Origin: Nocardia acidivorans NBRC 108247
Lineage (GTDB): Bacteria; Actinomycetota; Actinomycetes; Mycobacteriales; Mycobacteriaceae
Length of the DNA: 64,000 bases
Assembly: GCF_001625085.1 (NCBI RefSeq)
Contig: NZ_BDAW01000026.1
Coordinates: 1-64,000, forward strand
Direction: 5' to 3'
Made by a program: the position numbers and the translations under genes
Notes under the pieces: generated by a model
What the model was told of the DNA's origin: nothing
The model's input: the letters and a program-made list of their open reading frames with translations, nothing else
The model's database searches: none
Shown here: one piece after another, positions 54,697-62,369 of the stretch
Layout of the letters: every line of letters starts with the position of its first letter
Position numbering within the stretch: position 1 is the first letter of the stretch

Positions 54697-55842
54697 TCAG
54701 CCGAAGAGATTGCGCACGAACGGAACCGAGTCCGGCAGCGAGGCATTCACCGTGCCATCGTGATTGGTCGGATAGGTATGCAGCGTGACCGGCTGCCCAT
54801 CGGCCTGCAACTTGGCCGCGAACGCCAGCGTCGCCGGAGTGGCGACATCGGTGTCCAGCAGTCCCTGGCCCAGGAAAAGCGGCTTGTCATAACCCGATTC
54901 GGGCAGGCCCATCACCCGCGCCAGCATTCCCTGCAGATCCGGGATCTGCGCCAGCGGGCGCGCGAACAGGTCGCCGACCACCACATTGTTCGCGGTCAAC
55001 TCCTCGCCGAGGGACTCCAGGCAGGAGGAGTTGGCGTGCTCGAGCCAGTACCGCCCCGAATCATTGAGATAGGACTCGATATTCAGCTCCGGATAGGTCG
55101 TGCGCAGGCCGTTCAGGATGTACAGCACATAACCGGTGGTGTGCGCGGGCAGCTTGATCGGCGGCACGCCCGGTCCCAGCGGCAGCAGAATGTCCTCGAT
55201 ATAGGCCGGTACGCCGGTTCCGACCGCACCCCGGTAATCGAGGCCCGGTCCACCGAATTCGGTCGCGTAGCGCGCGGTGAAGACCGCGGCGCCGCCGCCC
55301 TGGGACTGGCCGACCACCACCCATTTGTTCGACAGCGCGGAGTAGTGGCCGGTCGCGGCCTTGACCGCGTCCACGACGTTATGCGCCTCGACCGTGCCAT
55401 TGAGGTACGGATGATCGCCGGGCGTGCCCAATCCCGCGTAGTCGGCGGCCACGATGGCGTAGCCCTGCTTCAGCCAGGTGCCCAGGTAGGCCCAATCCCG
55501 TTCGCGCGCGGCCGGTCCGGCGATGGAGTATGCGCAGTCGTCGCCGAGGCCGATGGTGCCGTGCGCCCAGGCGATCACCGGCCAGCCGCCGGCGGGTGCG
55601 TCACCGGGCGGGAAGTACACCGCCGCACTCGCGGTTGTCGGTTGGTCGTTCGCGGTGGTGCTGCCGTAGAGGATTCGCTCCGCGCGCGCCGATCCCGGGA
55701 GCGTCGCGGCCGGTGCGAGTGGTTCGACCGCGCTCACCGCCCCGATTGTCACGGCAGGCCCCGCCATTACGCTCGGCGCGCTGACCAGCGCGGCGAGCGA
55801 GGCGGCGGCCAGCGCCGTCGTGCACAGCATTCGTTTCCGCAT
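54697..55842 (-). CDS. Secreted lipase (LIP family)
   Basis: 381 residues from ATG 55842 with AAGGAG 6 nt upstream. Signal peptide with Val-Met-Ala near residue 27. Nucleophile GQSQGG (Ser180), Asp in GLLDTDVATP, His in YPTNHDG. WAHGTIGLGDDCAYS is typical of actinobacterial secretory triacylglycerol lipases. Extracellular lipid hydrolysis would supply fatty acids to the glyoxylate genes encoded divergently. Confidence 0.9.
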   Translation of the reverse strand: MRKRMLCTTALAAASLAALVSAPSVMAGPAVTIGAVSAVEPLAPAATLPGSARAERILYGSTTANDQPTTASAAVYFPPGDAPAGGWPVIAWAHGTIGLGDDCAYSIAGPAARERDWAYLGTWLKQGYAIVAADYAGLGTPGDHPYLNGTVEAHNVVDAVKAATGHYSALSNKWVVVGQSQGGGAAVFTARYATEFGGPGLDYRGAVGTGVPAYIEDILLPLGPGVPPIKLPAHTTGYVLYILNGLRTTYPELNIESYLNDSGRYWLEHANSSCLESLGEELTANNVVVGDLFARPLAQIPDLQGMLARVMGLPESGYDKPLFLGQGLLDTDVATPATLAFAAKLQADGQPVTLHTYPTNHDGTVNASLPDSVPFVRNLFG

Positions 55843-55943
55843 CCATGTCTCCTTATGTCCTCTGACGTCGCACCTGCGCTGGACGCGTGCCCAGACTAGG
55901 GCCTTTCCGGTACCCCGGGTGGCCCGCCCCACATCCATCAAGA

Positions 55944-55970
55944 TCACAATCCATTGTGAAGGTGCTCACA
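55944..55970. promoter_or_regulatory. Overlapping CRP/GlxR-type palindromes between lipase and aceA
   Basis: TCACAATCCATTGTGA (55944-55959) and TGTGAAGGTGCTCACA (55955-55970) share the central TGTGA. The second is an exact TGTGA-N6-TCACA consensus site. About 113 bp upstream of the lipase start and 333 bp upstream of aceA. Confidence 0.65.
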
Positions 55971-56034
55971 GCTCGCCGGACATCGGCGCGTCGCGTGCCG
56001 GTGGCCGTCGTCACCCAAACAGTACGGGCGTTAT

Positions 56035-56218
56035 GCAAAACTGCACGTCAGAGCTACTCGCAAGTAGAAACCCCGACTGCTATTAGCAGGCAAATTTCGC
56101 AGGTTTAGCAAAAGCCTCGCGAAAGCTAGCCGGGATTCACACTTGCAACAGGTAGACGGACATTTTTTCCTGTGCCATCGTGTGGAAGTACACCTCGCGG
56201 GCATAGCAAGCCTGCAAA
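56035..56218. promoter_or_regulatory. Candidate RamB-type motifs upstream of aceA
   Basis: Four GCAAA/TTTGC cores at 56035, 56090, 56108 and 56214 within 270 bp of the aceA start; the one at 56090 (minus-strand CGAAATTTGCC) is nearest the AAAGTTTGCAAA-like RamB consensus. The 55843-56302 gap otherwise contains no gene. Confidence 0.4.
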
Positions 56219-56302
56219 TTGCCGCTCCAGCAGTGTCCGAATCATCGCGAGAGGGTTCGACCGGCGGGGCAACCGAGACCGAACGAAGAAGTGGAGTCAG
56301 AG

Positions 56303-57592
56303 ATGTCGACTGTCGGCACCCCGAAGACCGCTGCGGAGATCCAGAACGACTGGGATACCAACCCCCGTTGGAAGGGCATCACCCGGAGCTACACCGCCGA
56401 GCAGGTTGTGAAGCTGCAGGGCACCGTTGTCGAGGAGCACACGCTCGCCCGCCGTGGTGCCGAGATCCTGTGGGATCTGGTCAACAACGAGGACTACATC
56501 AACTCCCTGGGCGCCCTCACCGGCAACCAGGCCGTGCAGCAGGTGCGCGCGGGCCTCAAGGCCATCTACCTGTCCGGTTGGCAGGTCGCCGGTGACGCGA
56601 ACCTGTCCGGCCACACCTACCCGGACCAGTCGCTGTACCCGGCGAACTCGGTTCCGTCCGTGGTGCGCCGCATCAACAACGCGCTGCTGCGCGCCGACGA
56701 GATCGCCAAGGTCGAGGGTGACACCTCAGTCGCCAACTGGCTGGCCCCGATCGTCGCCGACGCCGAGGCCGGTTTCGGTGGCGCGCTGAACGCCTACGAG
56801 CTGCAGAAGGCCATGATCGCCGCCGGCGCCGCCGGTGTGCACTGGGAGGACCAGCTGGCCTCCGAGAAGAAGTGCGGCCACCTCGGTGGCAAGGTGCTGA
56901 TCCCCACCCAGCAGCACATCCGCACCCTGACCTCGGCTCGCCTCGCGGCCGACGTCGCCGGTGTCCCGTCGGTCATCATCGCGCGCACCGACGCCGAGGC
57001 CGCCACCCTGATCACCTCCGATGTGGACGAGCGCGACCGCGAGTTCCTCGATGGCACCCGTACCGCCGAGGGCTTCTTCGGTGTGAAGAACGGCATCGAG
57101 CCCTGCATCGCGCGTGCCAAGGCCTATGCCCCGTACTCCGACCTCATCTGGATGGAGACCGGTGTGCCGGATCTCGAGGTCGCCCGCAAGTTCGCCGAGG
57201 CCGTCCGCGGCGAGTTCCCGGACCAGCTGCTGGCCTACAACTGCTCGCCTTCGTTCAACTGGAAGGCGCACCTGGACGACGCGACCATCGCGAAGTTCCA
57301 GCGTGAGCTCGGCGCCATGGGCTTCAAGTTCCAGTTCATCACCCTGGCCGGCTTCCACTCGCTGAACTACGGCATGTTCGACCTGGCCTACGGCTACGCC
57401 CGCGAGGGCATGACCGCCTTCGTCGACCTGCAGGAGCGCGAGTTCAAGGCCGCTTCCGAGCGTGGCTTCACCGCCGTCAAGCACCAGCGCGAGGTCGGCG
57501 CCGGCTACTTCGACACCATCGCCACCACCGTGGACCCCAACACCAGCACCGCCGCGCTGAAGGGTTCGACCGAAGAGGGCCAGTTCCACTGA
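56303..57592 (+). CDS. aceA: Isocitrate lyase
   Basis: 429 residues from ATG 56303 with GGAG 6 nt upstream, the length of mycobacterial Icl1. Catalytic loop KKCGH with Cys191 at the same number as in Icl1, [10 protein letters not shown] and TYPDQSLYP near 90-113, and YNCSPSFNW. Cleaves isocitrate to glyoxylate and succinate for growth on fatty acids or acetate. Upstream RamB- and CRP-like motifs, downstream terminator and fadB2, all fit carbon-source control. Confidence 0.97.
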
Positions 57593-57615
57593 GCTTGAAT
57601 CGGTTCCGATGATTT

Positions 57616-57657
57616 CCCCGGGGCGGTAGTCGCATCACACCTTCCACCGCCCCGGGG
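57616..57657 (+). terminator. Terminator after aceA
   Basis: CCCCGGGGCGGT and ACCGCCCCGGGG form a perfect 12-bp stem with an 18-nt loop, 24 nt past the stop. Confidence 0.8.
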
Positions 57658-57682
57658 GAGTTCGAAAACTGATGGCACAGAA

Positions 57683-57744
57683 CGCGACAACTGATTTCGT
57701 GCGATCCGGGTAACTCCGGGGGTACGGCCAAAATTGTTGTCGCG
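57683..57744. repeat. Inverted repeat in the aceA-fadB2 gap
   Basis: CGCGACAAC (57683-57691) and GTTGTCGCG (57736-57744), exact 9-bp arms 44 bp apart, with TCCGGGTAACTCCGGGGGTA inside. Could be a two-site operator or the base stem of a leader RNA for fadB2. Nothing else recognised in 57593-57956. Confidence 0.5.
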
Positions 57745-57956
57745 CTTATCCGCCACTACGCGTTCATGACAGTAAACGGCTCTGAGCTGGGCGCTGAGGT
57801 CGCGGAGAGGCGGCGGAGCCCTTCCCGTCGACAGCCCCGGCGGGGAGGGCGTTGTCATATAGCTTTGAACAGAAGACCTTACGAAGGCGCAGGGTCGTAC
57901 CGGGTTCGACGCCTTCACCCAGAGCCACGACGGCCAACTAACAGCAGGAGCGGGAC

Positions 57957-58844
57957 GTGAGCAGCGAAAAGATTCAGCGCGTCGGCATTATCGGTGCCGG
58001 TCAGATGGGTGCGGGTATCGCGGAGGTCTGTGCCCGGGCACACGTCGATGTGCTCGTATTCGAACAGACTCGCGAACTCGCCGCCGCCGGTCGTGCCCGC
58101 ATCCTGCGGTCGCTGGACCGCGCGGTGTCCAGCGGCAAGATCTCCGAGCGCGAGCGGGAGCAGACCGCCTGGCGGTTGCGCTTCACCTCCGATCTCGCCG
58201 ACTTCGCCGACCGCCAGCTGGTCGTCGAGGCCGTGCTGGAGAACGAAGATGTGAAGACCGCCATCTTCTCCGAGCTCGACAAGGTCGTCACCGATCCGAA
58301 CGCGGTGCTGGCCTCCAACACCTCCTCCATCCCGATCATGAAGATCGCCGTGGCCACCAGCAACCCGGAGCGGGTTGTCGGTATGCACTTCTTCAACCCG
58401 GTCCCGGTGCTGCCGCTGGTCGAGCTGGTCACCACGCTCAAGACCAGTGACTCGGTCTCCAAGCGCGCCGAGCAGTTCGCCTCGGACGTGCTGGGCAAGC
58501 AGGTCGTGCGCTCGGCCGACCGCTCCGGTTTCGTGGTCAACGCGCTGCTGGTGCCGTACCTGCTCTCGGCCATCCGCATGGTCGAATCCGGTTTCGCCAC
58601 CAAGGAAGACGTCGACAAGGCCATGGTGCTGGGCTGCGCCCACCCGATGGGCCCGCTGGCGCTGACCGACCTGGTCGGACTCGACACCGTGAAGTCCATC
58701 GCCGACTCCATGTACGCCGAGTTCAAGGAGCCGCTGTACTCCGCCCCGCCGCTGCTCATGCGCATGGTCGAGGCCGGACTCCTGGGCAAGAAGGCGGGCA
58801 CGGGCTTCTACCAGTACAGCTCCCCCGCCGCCTCGCGTAACTAG
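57957..58844 (+). CDS. fadB2: 3-hydroxybutyryl-CoA dehydrogenase
   Basis: 295 residues from GTG 57957 with AGGAG 7-8 nt upstream. NAD-binding VGIIGAGQMGAGIAEVCARA at residues 9-28, DRQLVVEAVLEN, catalytic SNTSSIPI and GMHFFNPVPVLPLVELV (His of the His-Glu pair), and LGCAHPMGPLALTDLVGLD in the C-terminal domain. Oxidises L-3-hydroxybutyryl-CoA. Next to aceA as in M. tuberculosis. Confidence 0.92.
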   Translation: MSSEKIQRVGIIGAGQMGAGIAEVCARAHVDVLVFEQTRELAAAGRARILRSLDRAVSSGKISEREREQTAWRLRFTSDLADFADRQLVVEAVLENEDVKTAIFSELDKVVTDPNAVLASNTSSIPIMKIAVATSNPERVVGMHFFNPVPVLPLVELVTTLKTSDSVSKRAEQFASDVLGKQVVRSADRSGFVVNALLVPYLLSAIRMVESGFATKEDVDKAMVLGCAHPMGPLALTDLVGLDTVKSIADSMYAEFKEPLYSAPPLLMRMVEAGLLGKKAGTGFYQYSSPAASRN

Positions 58845-58862
58845 CGCCCGGCTGAGAGCCGT

Positions 58863-58881
58863 CACGCGTTCCACACGCGTG
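58863..58881 (+). terminator. Small hairpin after fadB2
   Basis: CACGCGT - TCCAC - ACGCGTG, 7-bp stem, 19 nt past the stop. Weak terminator candidate. Nothing resembling a cobalamin riboswitch is seen in 58845-59099. Confidence 0.5.
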
Positions 58882-59099
58882 GCGGCGGTCTGGTGCCACA
58901 CCGATTTGGACGTCCCCGGCGAGTTACCCCGACCTTGTGAGATCAGTTGTCGCGTTCTCGAACACAAGGCCACGCTCGAGACGCCCAGCGTTCTTTACCC
59001 AGGTGCGCGTCGCCGGGCATGTGGCGGCGTCCACCTTCGACGGGCATAAGCTGCAAATAGGTCGAGTCGGACCGGCAGCTCGGAAGGAGTGTCCCGCAC

Positions 59100-61418
59100 A
59101 TGGTCAATGTCAGCGATGGCTTCGGATCCAGCATTCTGGGGTATCCGAGAGTCGGCCCGCACCGGGAGCTCAAGCGTGCTCTCGAGTCGTATTGGCACGG
59201 AACGCTTTCCCGGGAAGCGCTGCTCGAGGTCGGGCGCGAGATTCAGGAGACCCAGTACCTCGAATTGGCCGCCACCGGCTTGACGCAGGTGCCCGGCAAT
59301 ACCTTCTCCTTCTACGACCACATTCTCGACAACGCACTGCTGTTCGGTGCGGTCCCGAAGCGGTTCGAGGCGCATCGCGAGGGTTTGCACCCCTTGGACT
59401 TCTACTTCCTGATGGCGCGCGGGCGGCCCGATCTGCCGCCGCTGGAGCTGGTGCGGTTCTTCAATACGCCGTACCACTACCGCCAGCCGGAGCTGGACGC
59501 CGATACCGAATTCTCTTTGCACCCCGAGGCTTTGCTCGACGAGTTCGACCGCGCCAAGGCCGCGGGCATCGAACTGCGCCCGGTGGTGCTCGGCCCGCTG
59601 TCGCTGCTGCTGCTCTCCAAGACCGGCCATGTCCCCGGTGAGACCGAATTCGACAAGCTGGTGCTGCTGGACAAGCTGCTCCCGCTGTACGAAGAGCTCT
59701 TCGAGATCCTGGCCAAGCGCGGCGCGACCTGCGTGCAATTGGATGAGCCCTGCTTCACCAGCGACCGCTCACCCTCCACCATCGAACTCTTCGAGCAGAC
59801 CTACCACCGGCTCTCCAAGGCGTCGCTGCGCCCGCGTCTGCTCGTCACCGGCCAGTACGGCGATTTCGGCGAGGCCCTGGAAGCGTTGGCGCGCACCAAG
59901 GTCGAGGCCATCGGACTCGATCTGGCCAACCATCGGATCCGCCCGGAAGATCTGGCGAAGATCCCCGGCATCGGCCGTAAGCGGTTGTACGCGGGCGTCA
60001 TCAGCGGCACCAATGTGTGGCGCGCCGACCGCGTGGTCGCCCTCGAATACCTGAACGAGCTGGCCAAGGTCTGCCCGGACATGGTGGTCTCCACCGGTGC
60101 GACCCTGCTGCACGTGCCCTACGACCTGCTCGTGGAATACGATCTGGAGGAGCACGTCGCGGACCGCCTCGCCTTCGCGAAACAAAAGGTCCTCGAGGTG
60201 GTTTCGCTGGCCAAGGCGCTCACCGAAGGACCTTCGGAGAAATGGCGCAAGCGCCCGACCTCGGTGCACTTCAAGCAGAAACACGCTGTGCGGCAGCGGG
60301 TTTACAACATCACGCCGGAAATGCGGGAGCGCGCGCCCTATGAGGTGCGACGTGTCGCACAGCAGGCCAAGCTGAATCTGCCGCTGGTGCCCGCCACCAC
60401 GCTCGGCTCCTTCCCGCAGACCAATGCCGGTCGACAGGCCCGCTACGAGCTGGGCCGGGGCCGACTGTCCTACGACGACTACCGCAAGCGCATCGAAGCC
60501 GAGATCGAAGGCACCATTCGACTACAGGAGGACATCGGCCTCGATGTCTTCGTGCACGGCGAGCACGAGCGCAATGACATGATCCAGTACTTCGCGGAGC
60601 AGCTGGACGGCTTCGCCACCACCCGCTTCGGCTGGGTGCAGGTGTACGGATCCCGTTGTGTGCGACCGCCGGTGCTGTACGGCGATGTGTCCCGCCCCGC
60701 CCCCATGTCGGTCGAGTGGACCACCTACGCGCAGTCGCTCACCGATAAACCGGTCAAGGGTATGGTCACCGGTCCGGTCACCATGATCGCGCGCTCCTTC
60801 GTGCGCCAGGACCAGCCGCTGTTCGAAACCGCGGACCAAGTGGCACTTGCCATTCGGGACGAAGTGGTGGATCTGGAGAAGGCGGGCATCGCCATCATCC
60901 AGGTGGACGAGCCGTCCATTCGCGAACTGCTGCCGCTGCGGGTCAAGGGCCGCGCCGAATACCTGCGCTGGGCGGTCGGTGCGTTCAAGCTGGCCACCTC
61001 CGGTGTGCTCCCCGAGACCCAGATCCACACGCACATCGGCTATTCCAGCCGCGTTGACGTGGTGCAGGCCATCGAGGAACTCGATGCCGACGTGACCGCG
61101 ATCGTGGCCACCCGCTCCATCGAATGGGTGCTCAAGGCCCTGGAAGAGGACAATGCCGAAGGGCGCGGCCTCACCCACGGCGTCGGCCCGGGCGTGTACG
61201 AATCCCGGTCGGCGCGCATCCCGGATATCGACGAACTTGACGAGGCACTCACCGCCGCGGCCAAAGCCGTGACGCCGCAACGCCTCTGGGCCAATCCGGA
61301 CGGCGGGCTCAAGACCCGGCACCACTGGCAGCTGGACCCGTCCCTGCGCAATATGGTCGCGGCCGCCCGCCGCGTCCGCCGCCGGGCACTGGCCGCGGAG
61401 GCCGAAGCGGCCGAGTAG
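59100..61418 (+). CDS. MetE-family protein lacking three of four zinc ligands
   Basis: 772 residues, full length for cobalamin-independent methionine synthase; AAGGAG sits before ATG 59100. The N-terminal half keeps ILGYPRVGPHRELKRALESYW. The C-terminal barrel keeps TTLGSFPQTN, HGEHERND (Glu488; the usual Ala after Glu is His489), YGSRCVRPP, SLTDKPVKGMVTGPVT and IIQVDEPSIRE, i.e. the homocysteine-binding set. Zinc ligands are altered: only His645 remains, the family Cys is Gly647 (HTHIGYSS), the Glu is Val669 (AIVATRS) and the second Cys is Gly735 (NPDGGLKTR). Frame is intact, so this is not simple decay. It probably cannot activate homocysteine thiolate in the standard way. It may be a methyltransferase with another mechanism, a regulatory paralogue, or inactive; I therefore withhold the symbol metE. 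Confidence 0.85.
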   Translation: MVNVSDGFGSSILGYPRVGPHRELKRALESYWHGTLSREALLEVGREIQETQYLELAATGLTQVPGNTFSFYDHILDNALLFGAVPKRFEAHREGLHPLDFYFLMARGRPDLPPLELVRFFNTPYHYRQPELDADTEFSLHPEALLDEFDRAKAAGIELRPVVLGPLSLLLLSKTGHVPGETEFDKLVLLDKLLPLYEELFEILAKRGATCVQLDEPCFTSDRSPSTIELFEQTYHRLSKASLRPRLLVTGQYGDFGEALEALARTKVEAIGLDLANHRIRPEDLAKIPGIGRKRLYAGVISGTNVWRADRVVALEYLNELAKVCPDMVVSTGATLLHVPYDLLVEYDLEEHVADRLAFAKQKVLEVVSLAKALTEGPSEKWRKRPTSVHFKQKHAVRQRVYNITPEMRERAPYEVRRVAQQAKLNLPLVPATTLGSFPQTNAGRQARYELGRGRLSYDDYRKRIEAEIEGTIRLQEDIGLDVFVHGEHERNDMIQYFAEQLDGFATTRFGWVQVYGSRCVRPPVLYGDVSRPAPMSVEWTTYAQSLTDKPVKGMVTGPVTMIARSFVRQDQPLFETADQVALAIRDEVVDLEKAGIAIIQVDEPSIRELLPLRVKGRAEYLRWAVGAFKLATSGVLPETQIHTHIGYSSRVDVVQAIEELDADVTAIVATRSIEWVLKALEEDNAEGRGLTHGVGPGVYESRSARIPDIDELDEALTAAAKAVTPQRLWANPDGGLKTRHHWQLDPSLRNMVAAARRVRRRALAAEAEAAE

Positions 61419-61490
61419 CGCACGTTCACGAACCTGTCACGAAAGCGGAATTAGCCTGCGGGCACAGTTCTTTCGAGACAGGAGACGCCG

Positions 61491-61613
61491 ATGGATCCGA
61501 CGGGCAAGGGTGATCAGCCGGAGCCGGCCGAGGATGTGAAGCAGTTCAGCGAGAGCGCCGAGCACAAGGCTGATCAGGAACATCCTGATCAGCCTTGGAA
61601 GAGTCTGCGCTGA
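61491..61613 (+). CDS. 40-residue acidic small protein
   Basis: ATG 61491 preceded by AGGAG (8 nt), 40 codons, TGA. Sequence begins MDPTGKGDQPEPAEDVKQFS and ends HPDQPWKSLR; highly hydrophilic with many Glu/Asp/Gln. Own promoter region likely in 61419-61490. No family recognised. Precedes the antitoxin-like gene by 108 nt. Confidence 0.55.
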   Translation: MDPTGKGDQPEPAEDVKQFSESAEHKADQEHPDQPWKSLR

Positions 61614-61721
61614 GTCCCGGGCGCGCGCTGAGTCGCGCACCCCACACCCGTCGCTCACCGTCCGCCCGGTCCCGGCCGATAACCTGGGGGCCGAGGTTGA
61701 TTCGAGATGAGGAGTTCGACG

Positions 61722-61919
61722 GTGGGTCTGTTCGACAATCTGAAGGAAGCGGCGGGCAAGGCCGCTGAACTGGCGAGCGAGCACGCGGACAAACTGGATC
61801 CGCTGATCGACAAGGTCGGCGATCTGGTGGACGACCGCACCGAGGGCAAGTACGCCGGACACGTCGACAAGGTGCAGGACGCCGCCAAGAAGGCCCTGCA
61901 CGAGCAGGGGCAGAAGTAG
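61722..61919 (+). CDS. MT0933-like antitoxin-family protein
   Basis: 65 residues from GTG 61722 with AGGAG 7 nt upstream (ATG 61707 overlaps that site). GLFDNLKEAAGKAAELASEH and KYAGHVDKVQDAAKKAL are the pattern of the MT0933/Rv0909 family, a predicted antitoxin paired with an SRPBCC toxin in M. tuberculosis. No such toxin gene follows, so it is an orphan or has another role. Amphipathic helical protein. Confidence 0.8.
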   Translation: MGLFDNLKEAAGKAAELASEHADKLDPLIDKVGDLVDDRTEGKYAGHVDKVQDAAKKALHEQGQK

Positions 61920-62004
61920 AAAGAAAGCGCCCGGGGCAGTAGCGCGATGCTCATTCATTGAGATCCGGTAGCCCCGCTGCTCCCGGGTTCGCTACTGCCG
62001 CAAC

Positions 62005-62101
62005 GTCATCCCGTCATTCCGGCATGCTTTCGGCCGGAATCTACCGAAATAGACTGTGTCGCTGTGGGTGTGGATCCCGGGCAAAAGCGCGCCGGGATGA
62101 C
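62005..62101. repeat. Palindromic repeat element, copy 1
   Basis: Imperfect terminal inverted repeats: GTCATTCCGGCATGCTTTCGG (from 62013) against GGATCCCGGGCAAAAGCGCG...GGGATGAC (62072-62101), total 89 bp, with a short duplicated GTCATCCC at 62005. Related to the element at 63638-63724. Its right end runs into the broken mini-protein gene. Confidence 0.75.
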
Positions 62102-62233
62102 GGGGATGGTGCTTCACCGGCCGCGGTGGTACCGGTGTCGGCGGGCATGGCCGCGGCCACGCCCGCGCCGAACGGGAGAATGAACAAGGGTCGCCGCCAG
62201 GGCGATGGTGATGCGCTTCGCGGTGGTGGTCAT
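62041..62233 (-). pseudogene. Small secreted protein, frameshifted and 3'-disrupted by the palindromic element
   Basis: On the minus strand ATG 62233 has AAGGGGAG 8 nt upstream and starts MTTTAKRITIALAATLV. After one extra base near 62184 the natural continuation is ILPFGAGVAAAMPADTGTT, completing a signal peptide with an Ala-X-Ala site. The restored frame then enters the palindromic element at 62101 and stops at 62041. So a small exported protein gene has a 1-nt frameshift and a replaced 3' end. Confidence 0.55.
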
Positions 62234-62369
62234 GTGATCGGCTCCCCTTGCCTGGTCCCGGGCGGTGTTTCTCGATGCCTGCAATGGTGCTCATCCGCGC
62301 CGGAATTCTCTGTCGCCGCATACACGCTCGGTGTGTAGCCGCGCCGACACCTCCGGCCCGCGCTCGGGT

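Follow-up and report, generated by a model that had tools for sequence, protein, structure and literature searches.

The closest described counterpart of the protein analysed here is the methionine synthase MetE (TIGR01371, EC 2.1.1.14), which in Thermotoga maritima stacks W539 on the pterin and has H672 among its candidate proton donors (PMC539065). Other described relatives include the core methionine synthases MesA–MesD, which consist of the catalytic barrel alone, and the MesB-like proteins of Chloroflexales, MetE-superfamily members that have lost the zinc ligands and for which another function was proposed (PMC7857596). The 64,000-nucleotide stretch of Nocardia acidivorans DNA studied here (the window) carries a gene, which we call metE′, whose product resembles MetE in its full two-barrel length, amino-acid clamp, glutamate-tail groove, DMV-loop aspartate and one zinc-binding histidine, but differs from it in lacking three of the four zinc ligands, the pterin-stacking tryptophan and the histidine of the DIHSP motif, in scoring under the TIGR01371 cut-off, in having no cobalamin riboswitch and in its linkage to aceA and fadB2. 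Its N-terminal barrel sets it apart from MesA–MesD, whereas the Chloroflexales proteins differ in having a single barrel, in belonging to another phylum and in carrying their own replacements (FSHG, YCDQ and YREQ); their zinc loss is an event independent of the one described here. A literature search found no paper treating metE′ as distinct from MetE.

The gene (59100–61418, + strand, as for all features below) starts with ATG and encodes 772 residues in an intact frame, with Meth_synt_1 at residues 10–324 and Meth_synt_2 at residues 431–757 in a profile search. The protein scores 862.1 bits against TIGR01371, short of the curated cut-off of 929.95, reaches the looser model NF003556 (931 versus 541 bits), and is 44% identical to Escherichia coli MetE and 51% identical to the canonical MetE of its own genome. 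Alignment with K-12 MetE (NC_000913) placed the E. coli zinc ligands H641, C643, E665 and C726 opposite H645, G647, V669 and G735, and alignment of the zinc ligands with the Arabidopsis and Candida MetE structures agreed, confirming the sequence-only reading that an intact 772-codon frame had selectively lost its metal site. The structure predicted from 40 Nocardia orthologues was poor (mean pLDDT 53.7).

Zinc-site loss extends throughout the clade. In a residue table that covered 142 distinct metE′ orthologues plus 21 copies of canonical MetE, and that took E. coli MetE and the T. maritima structure paper (PMC539065) as reference points, His645 (61032–61034), the sole retained ligand, is invariant (142/142), while the Cys/Glu/Cys set is absent from every orthologue. 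Gly647 (61038–61040) stands in place of the first cysteine, at a position that varies among G, A, T, P, N, S and E (entropy 1.95 bits) and is never Cys; Val669 (61104–61106) replaces the glutamate, with V or I in 142/142; and Gly735 (61302–61304) replaces the second cysteine, with Gly in 141/142 and Phe in the other. Since the same loss recurs in 142 distinct orthologues, it cannot be put down to chance or error in the window gene, and the earlier expectation that other proteins would share it holds for a whole clade. The proposal that His489 might rebuild a metal site fared worse: although Nocardia and neighbouring genera have His after the invariant homocysteine-clamp residue Glu488 (both at 60561–60566), 20 of the 44 orthologues from outside Nocardia have Val, Ile, Ala or Pro there, and because E. 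coli MetE has Ala after Glu484, at the matching site, the position is not conserved across MetE either. His489 was thus rejected as a rebuilt ligand, and no new conserved Cys/His/Asp set near the ligand loops was seen among the clade-specific fixed residues.

The folate and homocysteine motifs, which the sequence-only reading took to be kept, have had divergent fates. The homocysteine side stands: Ser437 (60408–60410) of the amino-acid clamp, Glu488 and Asp603 (60906–60908), which contacts the homocysteine amino group, correspond to E. coli S433, E484 and D599 and are found in 142/142 orthologues with zero entropy. So does the glutamate-tail groove, in which Arg22 and Lys25 of the RELK motif (59163–59174), R519 and R522 have zero or near-zero entropy over the 142 orthologues; among the counterparts of E. 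coli R17, K20, R515 and E605, R22, K25 and R519 are nearly invariant and E609 is kept in 134/142, and Asp493 of the DMV loop is also retained. The pterin contacts have been remodelled. Arg565 (60792–60794) occupies the site of the pterin-stacking tryptophan (E. coli W561, T. maritima W539), with Arg in 133/142, Phe, Leu or Gly in the others and Trp in none, and Arg703 (61206–61208) occupies that of the DIHSP histidine (E. coli H694, T. maritima H672), the candidate proton donor, with Arg in 140/142 and His in two. Pterin-side relaxation is also seen at position 119 (Lys, Arg, Ala or Ser) and at position 126 (His, frequently Tyr). The changes at Arg565 and Arg703, missed in the sequence-only reading, weigh as much as the zinc-ligand loss. 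The amino-acid site and the basic groove are thus kept by selection, and the metal and pterin sites have been dismantled. Residual folate binding would be possible, since Glu609 (60924–60926; T. maritima Glu583, a pterin anchor) and much of the glutamate-tail groove survive. Glu609 is replaced by Thr in seven orthologues and by Gln in one, and the seven with Thr609 are the same seven that carry Phe or Leu at position 565, a covariation confined to one sub-clade (L158, L171, L180, L145, L147, L176 and L179). Because the two replacements co-occur, Arg565 and Glu609 are suggested to form a pair, maybe a salt bridge filling the old pterin pocket.

The genomic context of metE′ is equally constant. 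At every one of 39 representative loci, drawn from about 24 genera, the isocitrate lyase gene aceA (56303–57592 in the window; PF00463) lies upstream on the same strand, in the same order, and in 37 of these the 3-hydroxyacyl-CoA dehydrogenase gene fadB2 (57957–58844; PF02737, PF00725) lies between the two, no member of the fadB2 cluster being called in the other two; genes beyond the trio differ between Nocardia and other genera. From the fadB2 stop to metE′ codon 12 there are 42–60 nt in several genera and about 125–150 nt in Rhodococcus-like genomes (genus names besides Nocardia, such as Rhodococcus, Gordonia and Dietzia, are inferred, and 'Rhodococcus-like' refers to gene order and the match to strain IGTS8 described below). 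Such short spacing is consistent with an operon, and gene order and spacing together suggest that aceA, fadB2 and metE′ form one, while the wider gap in Nocardia, 255 nt in the window, could accommodate a promoter of metE′ itself. In two of the genomes without metE′ (loci L218 and L219), a gene resembling mycolic-acid cyclopropane synthases, by sequence reading, was observed after or beside aceA–fadB2.

The interpretation that we favour, with a probability of roughly 0.55, is that metE′, a MetE paralogue, has been neofunctionalised, so that its product works without zinc, makes no methionine and is tied to growth on C2 compounds or fatty acids; changed function, already proposed in the sequence-only reading, is thus still the best explanation after analysis. 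An ancient duplicate of MetE would have arisen once, in the Nocardia–Rhodococcus–Gordonia–Dietzia line of Mycobacteriales, lost its zinc and pterin chemistry, kept the amino-acid site and joined the aceA–fadB2 unit as its third gene. The old homocysteine site would still bind an α-amino acid or a close analogue without metal activation of a thiol, and the former pterin and zinc space, lined by Arg565 (probably with Glu609), Arg703 and the hydrophobic Val669, would accept another partner or substrate group, probably an anionic one. The protein would be co-expressed with isocitrate lyase on C2 or fatty-acid carbon and would serve such metabolism. The parts of this interpretation differ in strength: a functional link to the aceA–fadB2 unit is very likely and a ligand of the amino-acid type is likely, catalysis is slightly favoured over binding alone, and an anionic second substrate is put forward as a tentative idea. 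The most specific version, a new metal-free activity on the MetE double barrel that probably dispenses with methyl-folate chemistry and acts on an amino acid and an anionic partner when Nocardia, Rhodococcus, Gordonia and related genera metabolise two-carbon compounds through the glyoxylate shunt, is a plausible proposal that we rate at somewhat below even odds.

The strongest competing explanation, which we nevertheless consider rather unlikely, is that metE′ encodes a pseudoenzyme, an abundant non-catalytic binder that buffers or senses homocysteine or methionine (or polyglutamylated folate) while the glyoxylate shunt runs. Loss of the zinc, the pterin stacker and the candidate acid alongside an invariant amino-acid clamp and polyglutamate groove is what such a protein would present, and the orthologue in Rhodococcus qingshengii IGTS8 was reported in the top ten of the 'sulfur proteome' on dibenzothiophene (PMC8557817). 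A homocysteine decoy or sensor, another of the functions first suggested for the gene, would thus still be conceivable. However, such abundance seems costly for a sensor, and the sequence does not vary at 27% of core positions across the 142 orthologues and W676, W743, R128 and Q129, far from the ligand site, are fixed in the clade, as expected of an enzyme or a complex (E701 and Q744 are further clade-specific fixed residues). Abundance and depth of conservation, including the clade-specific fixed residues, give a slight lean towards an enzyme. Less probable again is a zinc-free methyltransferase that would pass the methyl group of methyl-tetrahydrofolate polyglutamate to a non-thiol acceptor, such as an amino-acid amine or carboxylate, or would carry out the reverse reaction, a demethylation. 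The retained amino-acid clamp, glutamate-tail groove and DMV-loop Asp493 agree with this option, so that methyl transfer to another acceptor, one of the functions first suggested for the gene, survives as a possibility, but it is weakened by the loss of the pterin-stacking tryptophan in all orthologues and of the candidate acid histidine in 140 of 142, by the absence of the anchor Glu609 in eight (seven of them with R565 changed to F or L) and by relaxation at Lys119 and His126.

A third alternative, that metE′ is a zinc-free backup methionine synthase for sulfur or zinc limitation, matches the published reading of the IGTS8 protein under sulfur starvation but is very improbable, given that the zinc ligands, the pterin stacker and also the candidate acid have been lost. 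The 7.57-Mb Nocardia genome to which the window belongs does contain the second, canonical metE that was to be looked for (on contig C46), with all four H/C/E/C ligands intact and a cobalamin riboswitch (RF00174, 76.7 bits) overlapping its upstream end, and metH was found as well; because both are present, methionine synthesis is covered without the window gene. An Rfam scan of positions 55500–62500 of the window found no riboswitch at metE′. The same arrangement, with the riboswitch on canonical metE and none on the paralogue, occurs in Nocardia and in the Rhodococcus-like genome G139, and we read it as a probable division of labour. Canonical MetE is missing from 33 genomes of 14 genera that carry metE′, and MetH is found in 33/33 of them (over the curated cut-off in 32), so metE′ is never the sole methionine synthase; were it making methionine, MetH would be expected to have been lost in some genomes, and this was seen in none of the 33. 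We hold with high confidence that metE′ is not a methionine synthase. Nor does its constant link to aceA–fadB2 suggest a zinc-independent backup paralogue of the Zur type. In the remaining genome of the 33, a single contig without canonical metE, metH is broken up over two neighbouring reading frames (G061:C1:1747257-1750774). The Nocardia genome with the window also encodes a third, short MetE-C-like protein of 351 aa (PF01717, 102.7 bits; G000:C32:82033-82989, L003 1444-2499, + strand), directly downstream of an mnmA-like gene.

The published support for such a backup comes from R. qingshengii IGTS8, in which a 'MetE' (IGTS8_peg5907) was reported as 190–273-fold higher on dibenzothiophene than on sulfate and among the ten most abundant 'sulfur proteome' proteins in dibenzothiophene medium (PMC8557817). 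According to the same source, the protein contains just 2 Cys and 7 Met, and its gene lies 41 genes from mshA (peg5948) and 31–33 from genes for a choline sulfatase, TauD and a ROK regulator (peg5938–5940). In three closely related Rhodococcus-like genomes, metE′ has 2 Cys and 7 Met when counted from residue 9, compared with 4 Cys in the canonical copy, and in G139 mshA lies 37 kb from metE′ and 692 kb from canonical metE, with ROK-like (by sequence reading), TauD and sulfatase genes adjoining one another 6–11 kb from mshA. Since the residue counts and the distances to mshA and to the sulfatase–TauD–ROK trio fit, IGTS8_peg5907 appears to be the zinc-less paralogue, although it was called a cobalamin-independent methionine synthase in a report whose main text is silent on the missing zinc site (PMC8557817). 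The culture medium included cyanocobalamin (PMC8557817), under which a riboswitch-controlled metE would be expected to be repressed. The dibenzothiophene came from a 100 mM stock in ethanol, and for the sulfate cultures the main text carries no mention of ethanol (PMC8557817); we calculate from the stock that the dibenzothiophene cultures received about 0.5% v/v (about 86 mM), a carry-over that, on the culture conditions given there, confounds the sulfur comparison. The induction of peg5907 may be a C2 response and, given the apparent operon with aceA, C2 units formed from ethanol are no less likely to be the inducer than a lack of sulfate, which further weakens the case for a backup synthase. 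The published conclusion that sulfate-starved cells change over from MetH to MetE (PMC8557817) thus probably rests on the zinc-less paralogue.

More broadly, a large and highly expressed protein of a whole actinobacterial line, which includes soil degraders, biodesulfurisation strains and opportunistic pathogens, is annotated as MetE without having MetE chemistry, and pathway reconstructions and omics studies that score it as methionine synthase will err. metE′ is also a clean example of a zinc methyltransferase scaffold reused after metal loss, in a genetic context that makes its function testable.

The remaining alternative, that metE′ is a decaying or artefactual copy, would be consistent with the metal-site loss taken alone but is refuted by the distribution of the gene (59/59 Nocardia genomes and 90/151 genomes of the family), by dN/dS values against the window gene of 0.08–0.25 in nearly all comparisons (0.08–0.20 within Nocardia, 0.16–0.39 across genera) and by the reported abundance of the protein in Rhodococcus (PMC8557817). 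metE′ is maintained by purifying selection. The Nocardia copies, one of them a contig-cut fragment, are at least 81% identical to the window gene, and those of the GTDB family, in 23 of 31 genera by hand count, are 59–98% identical; the next matches in the family are canonical MetE, at no more than 53%. Genera without metE′ resemble Mycobacterium-like and Corynebacterium-like groups. In a tree of 79 rows, metE′ forms a single clade (SH-aLRT 100) on a long stem (0.81). Among 395 Actinomycetes genomes, no orthologue was found outside the family at E ≤ 1e-235, a threshold that may miss less similar zinc-less relatives, and the one match in G556 (52% identity) is at the level of canonical MetE; the Gly735 signature NPDGGLKT was confined to Nocardia within this sample, in which the family is represented mainly by Nocardia and Mycobacterium-like genomes and by few others. 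An independent group of MetE-like two-barrel proteins whose zinc ligands are degraded or absent was observed in another family of the order (f14, genus g53), at L152 8692-11058 (−), L153 8000-10351 (+) and L154 8646-10997 (−); these proteins share 58–80% identity with one another, and the catalytic domain of two of them is not recognised to its end.
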